The translations under genes were made by a program, and so were the position numbers. The notes under the pieces are model-generated. The model worked only from the letters and a program-made list of their open reading frames with translations, had not been told where the DNA came from and ran no database searches. From Gemmatimonadaceae bacterium (GTDB lineage Bacteria; Gemmatimonadota; Gemmatimonadetes; Gemmatimonadales; Gemmatimonadaceae), in assembly GCA_035533755.1 (NCBI GenBank), contig DATLTC010000057.1:1-33180 (forward strand): a DNA stretch of 33,180 nucleotides, in the 5' to 3' direction. Below, one piece after another: positions 10,084 to 17,332 of the stretch. Within the stretch, counting starts at the first letter, position 1, and each line of letters starts with the position of its first letter.

Positions 10084-11472
10084 GTGGCGCTCGAGATCCG
10101 CATCCTGGACGGCGCCCGCGCCGGCCAGCGCGAGGTGTTCGAGAAGTCGGTGATCGCCGTGGGACGCCACCCGCTGAGCGATCTACGATTCGATCCCGAG
10201 CGCGACCTGGACGTGTCCACCAAGCACGCCGAGATCCGCGGCGTGAACGGACGCTACGTCATCCACGACAACACGAGCACCAACGGGACGTACGTGAACG
10301 GCGAGCGCGTCCTGCCCGACCGCGAACTGGCGGACGGCGACCGGATCGCGTTCGGCGAGCACGGGCCGCAGGTGGAGATCCGCATCGTCGCATCGGCGCC
10401 GGCGCCGGCGCCCGCCACGCGCCTCGGCCACGAGTCGCCGGTGCGGCCCATGGCCGCCGCGACCGTCAGGGAGACGCCGCGGCGCTCCACCACCGAGCGC
10501 ATCGCGATCGCCGTGCAGGAACACACGTCGCGCCTCACCCGCCTGTTCTTCGCCGCCGTGGTCGTGCTCGGCGCCGGCATCGGCGTGGCGTTCTGGGCCG
10601 GACACCGCGCCGCGGCCGCGCAGGTGGCGCAGCTCCAGCAGATGCTCGCCCAGAACGAATCGGCCTCGACGGCGCTGGATGCGCGTCTGCATGCCATGGC
10701 CGACACCAACTTCTCGCACGCACTCGCGCGGCGCAGCGATTCGTTGCGGGCCCGCATCGCGCGCACGCCCGGGAACTCGGCCGGCGCCATCGACTCCATC
10801 CGCTCGGCGCTCGAGTCGCAGCACGCGCTGGTGACGATGGACGTACCGTCGATCAATGCCCGCAACGCGCCGGCCGTGGCCATGCTCTACTCGGATTTCG
10901 ACGGCCACTATTTTGCGGGCACCGCGTTCGCCGTCACACCGGGCGGGCTGCTGGTCACCAACCGGCACAACGTGCAGAACGCCGACGGCACCCGCGCTAC
11001 GCGCCTCGCCGTCACCTTCCGCAACACGGACGACGTGTGGCCGGCGCACGTGGTGCGGGTGAGCGATGACACGTCGGTGGATCTGGCGCTCATCCAGATG
11101 GACCGCGGCGGGCCCTTTACCACCGTGCAGGGCATCAGCCCGTCGGCCGCCGCCGCGCCCGAGGGCGCCCCCGTGCTGACCATCGGATTCCCGCTCGCCA
11201 CCGATCTGCCCATGGAGGGCAGCGGCGCGAATATGATTGCCAAGACCACGCTCGATCCCGGCACGGTGAGCAAGCGCGTGTCCACGGTGCTGCAGATCGA
11301 TTCCTACGCGGCGCACGGCTCCAGCGGGAGCCCGGTGTTCAACGCGCAGGGCAACGTGGTGGGCGTGGTGTTCGGCGGCCCCGCGGAGGCGGCGGGCCGC
11401 ATCGTCTACGCGGTGCCGGCCGACAAGCTCGCCGCGTTCCTCGGGTCAGACGCCCCCGGCATCATCAAATAG
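10084..11472 (+). CDS. FHA domain - transmembrane helix - trypsin-like serine protease
   Basis: The 462-aa protein begins with an FHA domain (about 3-101): GR at 27-28, S45/H48 and N67 in STNGTY. A Pro/Ala linker and one membrane helix (about 154-174) follow. A coiled-coil-like region (176-200) and helical spacer lead to a trypsin/DegP-like protease domain (about 265-455). The catalytic triad is visible: H295 in TNRHNV, D333 in SVDLALI and S414 in HGSSGSPVF. No PDZ domain follows. The topology puts the phosphothreonine reader in the cytosol and the protease in the periplasm. The GTG start is one base after the phosphatase stop, so it is translated with the cassette. A link between phosphorylation and proteolysis is my inference. 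Confidence 0.88.
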   Translation: MALEIRILDGARAGQREVFEKSVIAVGRHPLSDLRFDPERDLDVSTKHAEIRGVNGRYVIHDNTSTNGTYVNGERVLPDRELADGDRIAFGEHGPQVEIRIVASAPAPAPATRLGHESPVRPMAAATVRETPRRSTTERIAIAVQEHTSRLTRLFFAAVVVLGAGIGVAFWAGHRAAAAQVAQLQQMLAQNESASTALDARLHAMADTNFSHALARRSDSLRARIARTPGNSAGAIDSIRSALESQHALVTMDVPSINARNAPAVAMLYSDFDGHYFAGTAFAVTPGGLLVTNRHNVQNADGTRATRLAVTFRNTDDVWPAHVVRVSDDTSVDLALIQMDRGGPFTTVQGISPSAAAAPEGAPVLTIGFPLATDLPMEGSGANMIAKTTLDPGTVSKRVSTVLQIDSYAAHGSSGSPVFNAQGNVVGVVFGGPAEAAGRIVYAVPADKLAAFLGSDAPGIIK

Positions 11473-11477
11473 ACCCG

Positions 11478-11658
11478 CGGGTGGGCATCCAGAACGGAGA
11501 GTGAGCACAGGATGCTCCGGATTGGACGGATGCTACGGCTAGCACACTTGGGGGCTTCGGGGGTGAGATCTTCCCGCCGGAGCCCCCTATTGCTTGATCA
11601 GGAGCATCCGTCCGATCCGGAGCACCTGTTCAACCCCTGGGTTCTGGATGCCCACCCG
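11478..11658. repeat. Palindromic element, copy A (181 bp), at a convergent gene junction
   Basis: The whole segment is a long imperfect inverted repeat centred on AGATCT (11566-11571). The outer arms CGGGTGGGCATCCAGAAC (11478-11495) and its exact complement (11641-11658) pair over 18 bp. The middle arms (about 11508-11536 with 11600-11628) pair almost completely with one one-base offset. The inner stem begins with G5 at 11550-11554 and ends with C5 at 11583-11587. Copy B shares the architecture and a 25-base identical segment (11510-11534 here). It begins six bases after the FHA-protease stop and contains the anmK stop. No T-tract of a standard terminator is visible. No target-site duplication was seen. 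Confidence 0.85.
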
Positions 11659-12802
11659 GCGTGAACTTGCCCAGCACGCGCGGGCCCCGGGCGCCGGTAG
11701 CGCGCGGCACGTTGCCGGGCAGGCGCTCCAGGAACAGGTGCGCCAGCAGCGCGAACGCCACCGCCTCCTTGGCCTCGTCGTCGAAGTAGGCGTCGCTGAA
11801 CCGGCGCACCGACATCGGCGCCAGTTCGCGGCGGATGGCCTCCACGAGCGCGCCGTTCCTGGCGCCGCCGCCGGACAGCAGCACCTCCGCCGCCGGCTCG
11901 GGCATGAACCGGCGATAGGCGTCGGCGATGCTGCGCGCCGTGAGCTGGGTGGCCGTGGCGGCCACGTCGGCCGGCGACGCATCGGGCACCGCGTCGCGGC
12001 ACATCGCGATCACGCGTTCGGCGTACGCCGCGCCGAACAGCTCGCGTCCCGTGGACTTGGGCGGCTCGGCGGCAAAGTAGGGATCGGCGAGCAGTGCATC
12101 CACCACGCGCTCGATGGCCGTGCCGGCCCGCGCCAGCTCGCCGTCCACGTCGAACCGGCGGCGCGCATCGAGGGCGCGCACCACGCCGTCGATCACCGCC
12201 ACGCCGGGCCCCGTGTCGAACGCGCGCACCGCCGACAGGTCTCCGTTCGGCGGGACGATCGTGACGTTGCCGATGCCGCCCAGATTCTGCAGCGCGCGCC
12301 AGTCGTCGCCGGCAAAGAGCAGCGCGTCGGCCATCGGGACCAGGGGCGCGCCCTGCCCGAGCGCCGCCACGTCGCGCACGCGGAAGTCGCTCACCACGTC
12401 CACGCCCGTGCGCTCGGCGATCACCGCCGACTCGCCGATCTGCCAGGTGGCATGCGGCGGCTCGTGCCAGAGGGTCTGCCCGTGCGACGCGATGGCGCGC
12501 ACCTCGCGGCGCGCCACGCCCGCCTCGGCCATCACCGCGACGGCGGCGTCGGCCAGCCACCCGCCGAGGTCGAATTGCAGGAGGCAGTACTCCTGCGCCG
12601 TGCCGATGGACATCGCGCGGTGCAGCGCGTCGCGCTGCGCGGCGTCGTACTCGCGCACCACGAACGCGATCAGTTCGGGCTCGAGCCGGGCGTCGCGCTC
12701 GTGAAAGCGCACGGCCACGGCGGAGATGCCGTCGAGCGACGTGCCCGACATCAGCCCCACGTACACGGGCGGGCGCGCCGCCGGCGACGCGGGCCCGCTC
12801 AC
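11630..12802 (-). CDS. anmK: 1,6-anhydro-N-acetylmuramic acid kinase
   Basis: AnmK opens and phosphorylates anhydroMurNAc to MurNAc-6-phosphate in murein recycling. The 390-aa protein shows the family motifs GLMSGTSLDGIS (16-27), AIASHGQTLWHEP, WQIGESAVIAERTG, VSDFRVRDVAALGQGAPLVP, NLGGIGNVT, FDTGPG and LLSGGGARN. The GTG start overlaps the murQ stop by four bases (GTGA), and its product is the substrate of MurQ. The usual family ending around VLGKFTPG is followed by GHPEPRG and a stop, both encoded by the right arm of palindromic element A, so the native C-terminus has probably been replaced or extended by the element. Confidence 0.95.
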   Translation of the reverse strand: MSGPASPAARPPVYVGLMSGTSLDGISAVAVRFHERDARLEPELIAFVVREYDAAQRDALHRAMSIGTAQEYCLLQFDLGGWLADAAVAVMAEAGVARREVRAIASHGQTLWHEPPHATWQIGESAVIAERTGVDVVSDFRVRDVAALGQGAPLVPMADALLFAGDDWRALQNLGGIGNVTIVPPNGDLSAVRAFDTGPGVAVIDGVVRALDARRRFDVDGELARAGTAIERVVDALLADPYFAAEPPKSTGRELFGAAYAERVIAMCRDAVPDASPADVAATATQLTARSIADAYRRFMPEPAAEVLLSGGGARNGALVEAIRRELAPMSVRRFSDAYFDDEAKEAVAFALLAHLFLERLPGNVPRATGARGPRVLGKFTPGGHPEPRG

Positions 12803-13719
12803 GGGACGGGGGGCGGGTTGCGGCCGATCACGCGGCGGATGACGCCGCCCTCGCGATCGAGCGCCTGCTCGGCCGCGGCGCGATCGACGCCCAGAAAGTG
12901 CATGACGATCGCCGTCTTCACGCTGGCGCCGGCGGCGGCCAGCAGGGCGCGCGCTTCGTCGGGCGAGACGTCGCACACTTCGACCACGATGCGCCGGCTG
13001 CGCTCGGCCAGCTTGGCGTTGGTGGCTTGCAGGTCCACCATCAGATTGCCGTACGTCTTGCCCAGGCGGATCATCGCGCCGGTGGTGATCATGTTGAGCA
13101 CGAGCTTGGTGGCCGTGCCCGCCTTGAGGCGCGTGGACCCGGTGACTGCCTCGGGTCCGGTAATGGGCAGGATGACGAGGTCGGCCGCCGGCTCGTTGGA
13201 CGCCGGCGGCGGCGAACAGGCGATGAACGCGGTGCTCGCGCCCACCGCCTTGGCATGCGCGAGCGCGCGATGCACGTACGGCGTGGTGCCCGAGGCGGCG
13301 ATGCCGATCACGAAGTCGCCGCGGCGCACGCCCGCCGCGTCGAGATCGCGCACCGCGTCCTCGACGCGGTCCTCGGCGCTCTCCTGCGAGCGCGTGAGCG
13401 CCGGCAGCCCGCCGGCGATGATCCCCTGCACCATCTCGGGATCAGAGCCGAAGGTGGGCGGGCATTCGGACGCGTCGAGCACGCCCAGGCGGCCGGAGGT
13501 GCCGGCGCCCACGTAGAACAGCCGGCCGCCGCGGCGAAAGGTCAGTTCCGCCTGGGCGATCGCCGCGGCGATACGCTCGCGTTCGCCGTGCACGGCCGCC
13601 GGCACGGCGCGATCCTCGGCCGCGAGCAGGTCGACGATTTCGATCGGCGTGGCGAGATCGATGTCGGCCGTGCCCGGATTACGCTGCTCGGTGATGCGCG
13701 GATCGTTCGCTGTGGCCAC
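12799..13719 (-). CDS. murQ: N-acetylmuramic acid 6-phosphate etherase
   Basis: MurQ cleaves the lactyl ether of MurNAc-6-phosphate to give GlcNAc-6-phosphate and lactate. The 306-aa protein has the normal length and the motifs TEQRNPGTADID, YVGAGTSGRLGVLDASECPPTF (about 69-90, the sugar-phosphate SIS fold with active-site Glu), GIIAGG, IGIAASGTTPYV and GSTRLKAGTATKLVLNM, plus GNLMVDLQATNAKL. It uses a GTG start 21 bases after the lipoprotein stop and is directly coupled to anmK, giving a two-step recycling module. Regulation cannot be read from the sequence; no MurR-type regulator or transporter is next to it. Confidence 0.96.
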   Translation of the reverse strand: MATANDPRITEQRNPGTADIDLATPIEIVDLLAAEDRAVPAAVHGERERIAAAIAQAELTFRRGGRLFYVGAGTSGRLGVLDASECPPTFGSDPEMVQGIIAGGLPALTRSQESAEDRVEDAVRDLDAAGVRRGDFVIGIAASGTTPYVHRALAHAKAVGASTAFIACSPPPASNEPAADLVILPITGPEAVTGSTRLKAGTATKLVLNMITTGAMIRLGKTYGNLMVDLQATNAKLAERSRRIVVEVCDVSPDEARALLAAAGASVKTAIVMHFLGVDRAAAEQALDREGGVIRRVIGRNPPPVP

Positions 13720-13740
13720 GTCGGACGAATGAGGGACGTG

Positions 13741-14535
13741 CTACTGGATCACGACCGGTGCGTTGAGCTTCACCGTCATGTTGCTGCCCTGCGCGATGCA
13801 GCCCTCGAAGTTTGCCGTCGTGGCGGCCACGGCGCCACCCGCCGCCGCGCCGGCCACCCCGCCGACTACGGCGCCCTGGTTGCTCTTGCCCAGGATCTTG
13901 CCGGCGATGGCGCCGATCAGGGCCCCACCCACCACCTTCTGCACGTCCTTGGACGTGGGCTCGTTGCGCACTCGCTCGATGGTCTCGGCGGTGACCGTGG
14001 CGCTCACGACGTACGTGCGGCCATCAACGACCACCGACTTCACGTCGAAGCCCATGTCGATGGGGTCCTTGATGTTCTCGCTGCGCTTGAGCGCCGTGAT
14101 CTGCATGTGCACGGTGGCGCCGGCCGGAATGCTCACGCCGTTGCTGCCGGCCACCGTTTCGGCCACCGTGGCCGAGACGAGATCGCCCACCTTGTGCGTG
14201 TTGGTGCACACGCGCTGGTCGGGGTGCAGCAGGAGCGACGTGCCCGCGGCGACCTCGCCGCCGACCGGACGCGCCGGCTGCGTCCGGATGGGTTCCACGG
14301 GCGGCCGGGCGGGCGTCGAGGGCCTGGCAGCCACGGGGGTGCGCCGCTTCGTGGCGGGCGCGGGGGCGGGGGCAGGCGCCTGTGTCGTGTCGCTGAGCGC
14401 CGGCTGGGTGGCCGCCGCGGGCGCCACCTGGAGGCTCGTCGAGTCCGTGCTGGCCGCCTTCTGTTCGCCACCGCAGGCCGCGAGCAGAACCGTCATCGCG
14501 AGCGCCGCACTCATCCGGCCGATATATTCTGGCAT
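13741..14535 (-). CDS. Glycine-zipper lipoprotein, function unknown
   Basis: The 264-aa protein has a signal peptide with a good lipobox (LLAAC, C21), so it is probably a lipoprotein. A low-complexity Ala/Pro/Thr region (about 25-95) follows. The folded part (about 95-195) contains DLVSATVAETVAG and an IPAGATVHMQI motif seen in proteins of the TrbI/VirB10-like or YcfL-like beta fold; I do not recognise a family with certainty. Residues 203-235 form a glycine zipper (GGALIGAIAGK...GAVVGGVAGAAAGG) that could insert into or cross a membrane. The ATG is chosen because AGGGGGA lies five bases upstream on this strand; a longer frame exists but has no such site. It heads the murQ-anmK run. Confidence 0.8.
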   Translation of the reverse strand: MPEYIGRMSAALAMTVLLAACGGEQKAASTDSTSLQVAPAAATQPALSDTTQAPAPAPAPATKRRTPVAARPSTPARPPVEPIRTQPARPVGGEVAAGTSLLLHPDQRVCTNTHKVGDLVSATVAETVAGSNGVSIPAGATVHMQITALKRSENIKDPIDMGFDVKSVVVDGRTYVVSATVTAETIERVRNEPTSKDVQKVVGGALIGAIAGKILGKSNQGAVVGGVAGAAAGGAVAATTANFEGCIAQGSNMTVKLNAPVVIQ

Positions 14536-14573
14536 CGTCGTCCCCCTGTGTATGGATCGCCTCTGGTGCATGA

Positions 14574-14579
14574 AGTATA
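14574..14579 (-). promoter_or_regulatory. Candidate -10 box for the lipoprotein-murQ-anmK operon
   Basis: TATACT on the minus strand lies about 40 bases upstream of the lipoprotein ATG, in the spacer to the divergent ABC exporter. The -35 position 17 bases further up (CCGACG) is weak. The motif includes the palindrome GTATAC, so it could also contribute to the opposite promoter. Confidence 0.35.
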
Positions 14580-14645
14580 CACAGATTGTCCGCGGCCGTC
14601 GGGCGTCGTGATCGCCGCCGCCCGCTCCGACCCACCCACTTCCGC

Positions 14646-16421
14646 ATGAGCGACCGGCCCACCCTGCGGCGCCTGCTCCCCTACTATCGCCCCTACCGGC
14701 GAAAGATGGTGCTGGGGCTGTTCCTGACGGTCGTGTCATACGCGTTCTCAACCGCCGGCCCGTGGTTCCTGCGCGCCGCCGTGGATGATTTCGTATCGCG
14801 GGCGCCGCTGGTCAAGATCTGGCTCCTGGTGGGCGCGATGCTGGGCGTGGCGCTCGTGGCCGGCTTCTTCCGGTTCCTGATGCGCGAGCTGCTCAACAGC
14901 GTGAGCCGGTGGATCGAGTACGACCTCCGCAACGACCTGTTCGCCAAGCTGGAGACGCTCGATGCGGCGTATTTCGCGCGCATGCGCACGGGCGACCTGA
15001 TGGCGCGGCTCACCAACGACCTCTCGGCGGTGCGGATGGCCGCCGGGCCGGCCGTCATGTACCTCACCAACACGATCGCCGGCGGCACGTTCGCGCTGCT
15101 GGTCATGCTCCATATCGACGAGCGGCTCACGCTCATCGCGCTGCTGCCGATGACGCTGCTGCCGGTATCGATGCTCTGGCTGGGACGCGCCATCCACGAA
15201 CGGTTCGAAGCCGTGCAGGAGCAGTTCGGCCAGATGACGACGCGGGCCCAGGAGAACATCTCCGGGGTGCGCGTGGTGCGCGCCTATCGGCAGGAGGGGC
15301 CGGAGAGCGAGCGGTTCGCGGCCCTGGGCCAGGACTATCTGCAGAAGCAGATGCGGTTGGCCACGCTGTACGGCGTGATGCACCCGTCGTTCAGTCTGCT
15401 CGCCGGCCTGGGCGCCGTGGTGGTGCTGGGGCTGGGCGGCGCGATGACCATCCGCGGCGAGATCACCGTGGGATCGTTCGTCGCTTTCGGCCTGTACCTG
15501 GGGATGATCACCTGGCCGCTGATCGCGCTCGGCTTCGTGACCAATCTGTTCCACCGCGGCGCGGCGTCGATGGGGCGGTTGCTCGACGTGCTCGACGCCG
15601 AGCCGACGATCGTGTCGCCGGCCGCGCCGCGGCCGCTGCCGGCCGCCGCCACCGGACGGACGATCGAGTTCCGGCGCGTCGGGTTCCATTATCCCGTGGC
15701 GGACGACGCCGCGCCCCGTTGGGTGCTGCGCGACGTGAGCTTCACGGTGCCCGCGGGGGCGACGGTGGGAGTGGTGGGTGCCACCGGCAGCGGCAAGAGC
15801 GCGCTGCTCGATCTCGTCCCGCGCGTGTTCGACCCGCAGGAAGGCGAGATCCTCATCGACGGCGTGCCGCTCGCCGCGCTCGACCTCGACGCCTGGCGCC
15901 GCGAGATCGGCTACGTGCCGCAGGAGAGCTTCCTGTTCAGCGAGTCGATCGGGCGGAACCTCGACTACGGCGCGCCGGACGACGCGTCGCGCGACTGGGC
16001 GGCGTCGGTGGCGCAGCTCACGACGACGATCGAGGCCCTCCCCGACGGCTACGACACGATGCTGGGCGAGCGCGGGATCAACCTGTCGGGCGGCCAGAAG
16101 CAGCGGGCCGCGCTGGCGCGGGCGCTGGCGCGCAAGCCCACCGTGGTGCTGCTCGACGACGCGCTGAGCGCCGTGGACACGCACACCGAAGCCGAGATCC
16201 TGCGCGCGCTGCGCACCACGCTCGCCGGACGCACGGCGCTCATCGCCTCGCACCGCGTGTCGGCCATCCGCGACGCGACGTTCACCGTGGTGCTCGACGA
16301 GGGGCGGGTGGTGGAACAGGGCCCGCACGAGCGCCTGATCGCGGCCGGGGGACGCTACTGGTCGCTGCTCAACCGCCAGCAGCTCGAGGAGTCGCTCGAC
16401 GCGTCCGTCGAGCCGGCGTAG
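14646..16421 (+). CDS. ABC-type exporter half-transporter (MsbA-like, TM domain plus NBD)
   Basis: The 591-aa protein has the exporter fold: a six-helix membrane domain (about 15-310) with ENISGVRVVRAYRQE typical of coupling regions, then an ATPase domain (about 335-580). The ATPase has Walker A GATGSGKSALL, the Q-loop region YVPQESFLF, signature LSGGQKQR, Walker B VVLLDDALSAVD and H-loop ASHR. All catalytic elements are intact; note aspartate in the usual catalytic-glutamate position after Walker B (LLDDALS), as in some half-transporters with a degenerate site. It probably works as a dimer; the substrate (lipid, drug or peptide) cannot be told. No clear ribosome-binding site precedes the ATG. 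Its stop codon lies on the first base of palindromic element B. Confidence 0.92.
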   Translation: MSDRPTLRRLLPYYRPYRRKMVLGLFLTVVSYAFSTAGPWFLRAAVDDFVSRAPLVKIWLLVGAMLGVALVAGFFRFLMRELLNSVSRWIEYDLRNDLFAKLETLDAAYFARMRTGDLMARLTNDLSAVRMAAGPAVMYLTNTIAGGTFALLVMLHIDERLTLIALLPMTLLPVSMLWLGRAIHERFEAVQEQFGQMTTRAQENISGVRVVRAYRQEGPESERFAALGQDYLQKQMRLATLYGVMHPSFSLLAGLGAVVVLGLGGAMTIRGEITVGSFVAFGLYLGMITWPLIALGFVTNLFHRGAASMGRLLDVLDAEPTIVSPAAPRPLPAAATGRTIEFRRVGFHYPVADDAAPRWVLRDVSFTVPAGATVGVVGATGSGKSALLDLVPRVFDPQEGEILIDGVPLAALDLDAWRREIGYVPQESFLFSESIGRNLDYGAPDDASRDWAASVAQLTTTIEALPDGYDTMLGERGINLSGGQKQRAALARALARKPTVVLLDDALSAVDTHTEAEILRALRTTLAGRTALIASHRVSAIRDATFTVVLDEGRVVEQGPHERLIAAGGRYWSLLNRQQLEESLDASVEPA

Positions 16422-16594
16422 CGGGCATCAGGAACGGAGAGGTTCGGCCGGATGCTCCGGATTGGACGGATGCTCCGGATAAAGATCCGGGGGCTCCGGC
16501 GGAGAGATCTTCCCGCCGAAGCCCCCTCTCTTGTTCCGAAGCATCCGTTAAATCGGGAGCATCCTGTAGAAAGCCCTGCGATCCTGATGCCCGC
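16421..16594. repeat. Palindromic element, copy B (174 bp), at a convergent gene junction
   Basis: The segment is a long imperfect inverted repeat exactly centred on AGATCT (16505-16510). The outer arms GCGGGCATCAGGA (16421-16433) and its exact complement (16582-16594) pair over 13 bp. The middle arms carry two copies of GGATGCTCCGGAT 18 bases apart (16450-16462, 16468-16480), complementary to 16536-16566. The inner stem runs from G5 at 16489-16493 to C5 at 16522-16526. It shares the order of parts, the outer GGGCATC arms, the AACGGAGAG box and the 25-base segment (16450-16474) with copy A. It begins on the last base of the exporter stop and ends nine bases before the CcdA stop. Confidence 0.85.
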
Positions 16595-16603
16595 CTGCCG
16601 CAC

Positions 16604-17332
16604 CTACATCCGCTTGAGAATGAAGTCGGGCGTCATCTTCTGCAGCGTGCCGGTGAGCACGGTGAGGTAGCCGCTCACGAGTAGCACGCCGACCACGATG
16701 AGCAGGACGCCCGACGCCTTGGTGAGCCACGCCAGCCGGGCGCGATTGCGCTGCGCGAACACGATCAGCTCCTCGAGCGCCACCGCCGAGATGAGGAACG
16801 GCACCGCGAGGCCCGCCGAGTAGGCGGTGAGCAGGACCGCGCCGCGCCCGGCGTCGCCCGCCGTGGCCGCGAACGTCAGGATCGACCCCAGGATCGGGCC
16901 CAGACAGGGCGACCATCCGGCGCCGAACGCCATGCCCACGATCACCGTGCCGAAATAGCCAAGCGGCTTGTTGCGCAGGTGCACCCGCGTGTCCCGGCCC
17001 AGGAACGGCAGGTTGAACGCGCCCACCAGGTACAGCCCGAACAGGATGATGATCACCCCGCCCACGCGCGCCACCCATTCGCGGTGCACGAGCAGCAGGC
17101 GCCCGAGGGCGCTCGCTGCCACGCCCATGGTCACGAACACGATCGAGAATCCGATCACGAACAGGAAGGCGTGCAGGAGCGCGAACCGCCGCGACGACTG
17201 CACGTCCTCCAACGAGATGCCGGTGATGAACGTGAGGTAGCTCGGCACCAGCGGCAGCACGCAGGGCGAGATGAAGCTCACCAGCCCGGCCACGAACGCC
17301 ACCACGAGGCCGATCTCGTTCCCGGGCGCCAT
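16604..17332 (-). CDS. ccdA: CcdA/DsbD-type cytochrome c biogenesis membrane protein
   Basis: The 242-aa integral membrane protein carries electrons from cytosolic thioredoxin across the membrane for disulfide reduction, typically in cytochrome c maturation. It has six strongly hydrophobic segments. The two redox cysteines of the family are present in the expected motifs: C24 in FISPCVLPLVPSY and C143 in GAGWSPCLGPILGS. The length is that of the short CcdA form, without the periplasmic domains of DsbD. The ATG lies four bases after the upstream hypothetical gene, so it belongs to the same transcript. The gene ends next to palindromic element B. The symbol is by family; no other cytochrome c biogenesis gene is in view. 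Confidence 0.9.
   Translation of the reverse strand: MAPGNEIGLVVAFVAGLVSFISPCVLPLVPSYLTFITGISLEDVQSSRRFALLHAFLFVIGFSIVFVTMGVAASALGRLLLVHREWVARVGGVIIILFGLYLVGAFNLPFLGRDTRVHLRNKPLGYFGTVIVGMAFGAGWSPCLGPILGSILTFAATAGDAGRGAVLLTAYSAGLAVPFLISAVALEELIVFAQRNRARLAWLTKASGVLLIVVGVLLVSGYLTVLTGTLQKMTPDFILKRM

Follow-up and report, generated by a model that had tools for sequence, protein, structure and literature searches.

The closest described counterparts of the elements treated here are the repetitive extragenic palindromes (REPs) and REP doublets forming hairpins (REPINs), together with their REP-associated tyrosine transposases (RAYTs), in systems also known as REPtrons. In two published accounts, REPIN/RAYT systems consist of dispersed intergenic palindromes, with different families lying beside different partner genes (PMC3116915, PMC3733652); the second account further describes REP hairpins as short (20-40 bp), tagged with GTAG or CGTC at one end and biased towards unidirectional and convergent gaps between genes (PMC3733652). 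Two other comparisons arise, with the miniature inverted-repeat transposable elements (MITEs) of DDE insertion sequences and, on the protein side, with Cas4 and casposon-associated nucleases. The present analysis concerns two long palindromes, copies A and B, in a 33,180-nucleotide stretch from a Gemmatimonadaceae bacterium (the window, contig DATLTC010000057.1, here C57 of genome G000; 3.25-Mb genome, 103 contigs, 98% complete). The reading favoured here, to which we give somewhat better than an even chance, is that these palindromes are non-autonomous members of a dispersed repeat family whose partner is the GxxExxY (PDDEXK_3) nuclease, in a REPIN-like system. Among the options offered by a preliminary description of the window, a non-autonomous palindromic mobile element is the best fit, given the dispersed copies, their presence or absence at orthologous junctions and their species-specific arms.

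As that description had suggested, the genome was searched with each copy, and a dispersed family with about ten clear copies was recovered. BLAST and a covariance model, R1, placed copies on C57 (two), C13, C26 (three), C45 and C10, with a shorter one on C64; these nine full or near-full copies form the training set of R1. Further copies were found on C90 (E 1.5e-9) and, more weakly, on C61, C67, C2, C36 and C68. A pattern scan of genome contigs for the inner arm gave no matches, the own and very near genomes possibly having fallen outside it. The partner gene lies outside the window: on C26, copies at 688-902 and 1358-1599 flank a small gene (968-1399) whose product matches TIGR04256 at 109.8 bits (cut-off 35) and PF13366 at 116.4 bits (cut-off 22), which identifies it as GxxExxY. 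The same palindrome-flanked arrangement is found on C49 of genome G001, upstream of lepA, and R1 copies directly adjoin GxxExxY on C118 of G041 and C2 of G015. A second GxxExxY gene of the own genome (G000:C71:1-850, L036) is located between two direct copies of another repeat (flank-flank score 53), unlike the window family; its right copy is palindromic (score 49), and its left copy, near the contig start, falls below the threshold used throughout (19; threshold given below).

Of 99 genomes of the family, 17 have R1 matches and 68 have PF13366; by a hand count from the result tables, PF13366 is present in 16 of those 17 versus 52 of the other 82. Because R1 rewards long stems, its matches in distant genera may belong to other families of the same build. 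When the 154 genes next to 82 copies were compared, GxxExxY was the one family to recur in more than two genera (six genomes); the G016 and G040 loci had been chosen for holding GxxExxY, and without them its neighbourhood extends over four genomes of three genera. The other recurring neighbour families are mostly junctions shared within the genus; a few represent related proteins paired between two genera. A GxxExxY match with two in-frame TAG codons at G042:C39:25331-25645 is probably a decayed gene.

In this genome and in its relatives, long palindromes are more frequent next to GxxExxY genes than in other gaps. With a self-reverse-complement score of at least 40 within the 650-bp flanks as the threshold, 48 of 112 family loci (30 fetched automatically, two of the own genome and, by rank, the following 80 of a longer list) carry a palindrome. 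They lie upstream in 26/112 and downstream in 31/109, versus 1/107 and 2/106 at 800-1450 bp; these far flanks, as well as the 6-mer test below, mix coding and intergenic DNA. For intergenic gaps alone, 51 of 179 beside GxxExxY are palindromic versus 14 of 150 in 400 kb of DNA taken from elsewhere in 15 genomes of the family (p 1.2e-5), about three times as often, and among gaps of 150-450 length the counts are 38/103 and 10/84 (p 9e-5). Direct repeats between the two flanks of the gene, again scoring at least 40, were found at 11/109 family loci and at 8/75 of a set of named loci from several phyla (80 in all, from Bacteroidota, Acidobacteria, Chloroflexi, Gemmatimonadota and others), versus 0/102 and 0/71 for far flanks. 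In the named set, the most enriched 6-mer near GxxExxY is ACGGAT (90/155 versus 37/151 segments, z 6.0), which also occurs in the arms of the window palindromes; among the 112 family loci, enrichment is spread over a wider range of 6-mers and is less marked (top z 4.6).

Palindromes of this kind are also dispersed in other genomes, which for this count were G016, G040 and Citrifermentans bremense, G009 having been left out. In G016 the palindrome beside GxxExxY recurs at at least 40 places, that is, at all candidates scored, and in C. bremense (strain R1, unrelated to the model of that name) it recurs at 26 places, several of them partial or adjoining, two of which lie directly on either side of the GxxExxY gene. 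Within G040:C21:400001-420000 (L359), the palindrome that flanks GxxExxY (CACCACGGAGGCACGGAG type) is densely packed, with four copies in 20 kb. In eight of the random stretches that make up the 400 kb, 5 of 16 intergenic palindromes match a GxxExxY-flanking palindrome of the same genome (one in G016, four in G040), and 9 match none of the GxxExxY loci examined. At the Flavobacterium loci L291, L300 and L325, GxxExxY adjoins A+T-rich repeats, either tandem or palindromic, whose units resemble AACACAGATT/AATCTGTGTT; this is possibly the same system in Bacteroidota.

The family is polymorphic at orthologous junctions, as revealed by four genomes of the genus (G000, G001, G058 and G035). At junction A the element is present in G000 and G001, and the site is empty in G058 and G035, where the two genes nearly abut. 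At junction B it is again present in G000 and G001 and missing from G058, and in G035 its place is taken by a 95-nt palindrome that resembles it at the outer ends but has a different inner arm. Comparison of G000 with G035 at five junctions gave similarities of orthologous copies (0.08-0.18) below the within-genome means (0.19-0.38); one of these junctions, DUF58-lepA, has two copies around GxxExxY in G000 and one copy with no GxxExxY in G035, and the D copy was used for comparison. Between G000 and G001, orthologues are closer than the paralogue mean at three of four junctions, and for the three junctions common with G058 the orthologue similarities (0.20, 0.28 and 0.12) show no clear excess. 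When more distant species of the genus are compared, a copy is closer to the other copies in its own genome than to its orthologue. The pattern fits vertical retention in the short term and homogenisation or re-targeting in the longer term.

The partner protein (TIGR04256 / PF13366) is a predicted PD-(D/E)XK nuclease with intact putative catalytic residues: across 50 aligned proteins E32, D71, E81, K83 and Q95 are invariant and Y99 is nearly so, together the PD-(D/E)XK set of residues with a QxxxY motif. Its structure model is confident (predicted local distance difference test, pLDDT, 91.8), and the best fold match is SSO0001 (Foldseek E 3.5e-4; VIA Z 10.1, root-mean-square deviation 3.6 over 100 residues), presumably a Cas4 protein. 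Holliday-junction resolvases and many restriction-type nucleases score Z about 6-8, a range that the aligner calls common, so that only the top match is relied on. The fold match and the E, D, ExK and QxxxY pattern liken GxxExxY to Cas4 and to casposon-associated nucleases, but its Cas4 Pfam score (12.5 bits) is under the cut-off (22.7 bits). PADLOC gave weak Cas4 matches (best E 0.0061), and a search of PDB sequences with the GxxExxY profile returned none at E <= 1. The name GxxExxY occurs in two open-access papers, one of which applies it to a gene call adjacent to clustered regularly interspaced short palindromic repeats (CRISPR). A link between palindromes and GxxExxY is not described in open-access titles or abstract openings, a search from which most subscription journals and all of bioRxiv were excluded, and searching by the motif letters retrieved papers on natriuretic peptides and, among the matches listed, others unrelated by title.

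The chief rival explanation is that GxxExxY is a fellow-traveller. The palindromes would then be moved by something else (host repair, replication slippage or an unidentified transposase), and GxxExxY would be a passenger or an independent element with a preference for palindromes; we consider this rather unlikely. Three observations lean towards it and weigh against the nuclease as partner. At 64 of the 112 family loci there is no palindrome at the threshold; genome G002 (91% complete) has several R1-type palindromes (L060, L225-L227) and no PF13366 match; and no target-site duplication was seen by eye in eight own copies. Other points also weigh against the nuclease as partner. Only 11 of the 80 named loci pass the palindrome threshold, at least five of the 80 (L253, L254, L274, L275 and L280) being already among the 112 and L254 being one of the 11; the upstream score of L268 stems from an N run, that locus still counting through its downstream palindrome, and a control score of 100 at L287, which has 100 N, is probably an N run too. 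With control gaps taken from inside the same GxxExxY loci, the difference (51/179 versus 4/26, only 26 control gaps) is not significant (p 0.24). Two of the 16 random-stretch palindromes, both in G009, match non-palindromic stretches beside GxxExxY (scores 12 and 22). Y1_Tnp (PF01797), the sole mobiliser family searched for, is present in G015, G041 and C. bremense (G099), not placed beside the palindromes, and a RAYT is possible in these three. Finally, proximity of GxxExxY is no proof of mobilisation. At the G009 loci concerned (L354, L355, L157 and L173), the matches are perhaps to single arms or decayed copies.

Against another mover stand the status of GxxExxY as the only neighbour family in more than two genera and the direct flank-flank repeats, absent from far flanks. 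In addition, distinct palindromes flank distinct GxxExxY genes, and palindrome similarity follows protein similarity (48 loci, rho 0.27, 0/1000 permutations), a correlation that may in part reflect shared descent.

Comparison with REPIN/RAYT supports the likeness and also marks its limits. The palindromes are dispersed and intergenic, different families lie beside different partner genes, unidirectional and convergent gaps are preferred, and a partner gene adjoins members of the same family, here GxxExxY (C26 and G001 C49; G016, G040 and C. bremense). Two defining features are not found, namely the Y1 transposase as partner, in place of which there is a PD-(D/E)XK nuclease, and the tagged short hairpin: these palindromes are mostly ~80-280 nt with short repeated units in their arms, compared with the 20-40 bp of REP hairpins, and the ends of the window family (GGGCATC/GATGCCC) lack a GTAG or CGTC tag. 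The shared dispersal and placement could be taken to mean that the elements are relics of a REP/RAYT system or of a DDE-type MITE, and Y1_Tnp is indeed present in 3 of 13 searched genomes; we hold this to be very improbable. Y1_Tnp has no matches in the own genome and is absent from 9 of the 12 others searched, hence from 10 of 13 including G000, G016 and G040, DDE transposases having been outside the search; the untagged ends, the ~175 nt length and the failure to see a target-site duplication argue likewise. RAYT as the general mover was rejected on the same Y1_Tnp counts, the three genomes with Y1_Tnp notwithstanding. MITEs share with these elements that they are short, non-coding, dispersed and built on inverted repeats, but the present elements are palindromic along nearly their whole length and no target-site duplication was seen in the eight inspected copies; no cognate transposase is known here, the search having covered Y1_Tnp alone.

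The features of the window are collected in Table 1. From the outside inward, the element consists of a GGGCATC end, a AACGGAGAG box, an arm in which CGGAT units are repeated (GGATGCTCCGGATTGGACGGATGCT), a spacer that varies and, around AGATCT, the central hairpin; copies in G035 and G041 have outer ends that resemble the outer left arm of A.

Table 1. Features of the two palindromic elements and their neighbouring genes (positions in the window)
Feature	Position	Strand	Basis or remark
Palindromic element copy A (181 nt)	11478..11658	.	self-reverse-complement score 90, fold z -11.3, genome BLAST + model R1
Outer left arm of A: GGGCATC...AACGGAGAG	11483..11501	.	sequence
Inner repeat of A (CGGAT units), same sequence as 16450-16474	11510..11534	.	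sequence
Central hairpin of A	11550..11587	.	centre AGATCT 11566-11571; sequence, fold
Outer right end of A: GATGCCC	11647..11653	.	sequence
Palindromic element copy B (174 nt)	16421..16594	.	self-reverse-complement score 88, fold z -11.5, genome BLAST + model R1
Outer left arm of B: GGGCATC...AACGGAGAG	16423..16441	.	sequence
Inner repeat of B with CGGAT units	16450..16474	.	sequence
Central hairpin of B	16489..16526	.	centre AGATCT 16505-16510; minus-strand terminator-like tail
Outer right end of B: GATGCCC	16586..16592	.	sequence
Forkhead-associated (FHA) + trypsin-like domain protein, left neighbour of A	10084..11472	+	
anmK (anhydro-N-acetylmuramic acid kinase), right neighbour of A	11630..12802	-	3' end inside element
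ATP-binding cassette (ABC) exporter, left neighbour of B	14646..16421	+	
DsbD-type membrane protein (PF02683), right neighbour of B	16604..17332	-	

The preliminary description had presented both segments as almost complete inverted repeats about a central AGATCT that share outer GGGCATC arms, a AACGGAGAG box and 25 bases. The sequence agrees in each respect, with GGGCATC at the left end matched by GATGCCC at the right. When the whole window was resampled 20 times (Markov-2), no self-reverse-complement score exceeded 46, roughly half the values of A and B, and none of 200 shuffles folded as well. It had also placed the element in the only two convergent junctions of the window (11472/11630 and 16421/16604), which a codon-usage gene caller trained on eight own-genome genes corroborates. 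At its 3' end anmK, with its stop at 11630, extends into the right arm of copy A, and the arm codes for the C-terminal residues of the kinase (11630-11658); in G035, which has no element there, the anmK stop comes earlier.

Such placement and the extreme hairpin stability of both copies suggest another explanation, in which the palindromes are RNA devices under selection at convergent junctions, acting as bidirectional terminators, 3'-end protectors or RNase III targets. The absence of a T-tract claimed at first holds for copy A, which has no terminator-like match, but copy B has one such match on one strand (minus strand, 16526-16489 followed by GGATCTTTAT). No Rfam model matched the window at the gathering cut-off, by which a known RNA family was ruled out; between 11400 and 16700 there are five sub-threshold matches, four of them to microRNA-precursor models. 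A compensatory change in the inner stem, as first proposed, proved mistaken: CTTCGG against CCGGAG in A gives T·G, and CTCCGG against CCGAAG in B gives C·A. The covariance model suggested at the outset did recover further copies, and pairing is kept among the own-genome copies, but within-genome covariation is weak, both sides having changed in 5 of 47 pairs and 9 of 408 cells over nine copies. The covariation score exceeds all 500 shuffles, an excess that relatedness alone can produce according to the tool's own caution. As proof of RNA function, within-genome covariation was ruled out by these counts and by the non-compensatory example.

Gene orientation bears on the same question. The 12 own copies and fragments comprise 6 in convergent, 5 in codirectional and 1 in divergent gaps (convergent p 0.0015). 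Across eight genomes, 66 copies, a subset of the R1 matches in which junctions shared within a genus enter more than once, divide into 24 convergent, 36 codirectional and 6 divergent, three more lacking a called gene on one side; for 196 gaps drawn at random from 15 genomes of the family, none shorter than 40 bases, the corresponding counts are 21, 135 and 40. Convergent gaps are thus enriched (24/66 versus 21/196, p = 7e-6) and divergent ones depleted (6/66 versus 40/196, p = 0.04). Random placement with respect to orientation had been named beforehand as an argument against a role at such junctions, and the placement is non-random; the bias towards convergent junctions is strong, but not exclusive, with 36 of 66 copies codirectional and 6 divergent. 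A strictly convergent-junction device was ruled out, since 42 of the 66 copies with two called neighbours sit elsewhere. The enrichment, hairpin stability and terminator-like tail of B fit an RNA device, but those 42 copies, the junctions A and B left empty in sister species, the tail-less copy A, the weak covariation and the empty Rfam result make this explanation improbable.

Two further palindromes of the own genome were noted. One (G000:C67:26825-27051, L049) combines CGGATT-like units with repeated AACAGC/GCAGTT stretches, a build intermediate between the window family and the families of other genera. The other locus (G000:C2:1010-1800, L052) is an array: an element of a different palindromic family, containing CGGAT-like units and with GATGCCGG at its ends, is repeated there about four times head to tail.

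To return to the repeat family partnered by GxxExxY, we infer that its mobility is driven by the nuclease. With its predicted Cas4-like PD-(D/E)XK fold, the enzyme may act on its cognate palindromes in the form of a hairpin, a cruciform or a single-stranded arm, after which host repair could copy or homogenise them, by analogy with the service that RAYT is thought to render to REPINs. Copies would persist mostly downstream of genes, because insertion there is least harmful, and once settled would probably give the neighbouring transcripts a very stable 3' hairpin as a secondary effect; a terminator or 3'-protector role is possible as a side effect of this kind.

Taken together, the findings hint at a so far undescribed relative of the REP repeat system, one linked to a nuclease. 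A broader proposal, which we advance tentatively and at slightly less than an even chance, is that interspersed palindromes spanning several phyla are created, moved or homogenised by small GxxExxY PD-(D/E)XK nucleases and no transposase, the enzyme cutting extruded hairpins or cruciforms and repair doing the copying. If this is true, a single system of co-evolving enzyme-repeat pairs would include many of the long palindromes found in Gemmatimonadota, Bacteroidota, Acidobacteriota and others. For a protein family named after its motif, the link to repeats provides a testable substrate, and it provides the repeats with a testable mover. If confirmed, it would mean that the REPIN/RAYT arrangement has a second solution with a different chemistry, and it would help account for the build-up of palindromes downstream of genes and their likeness within a species.

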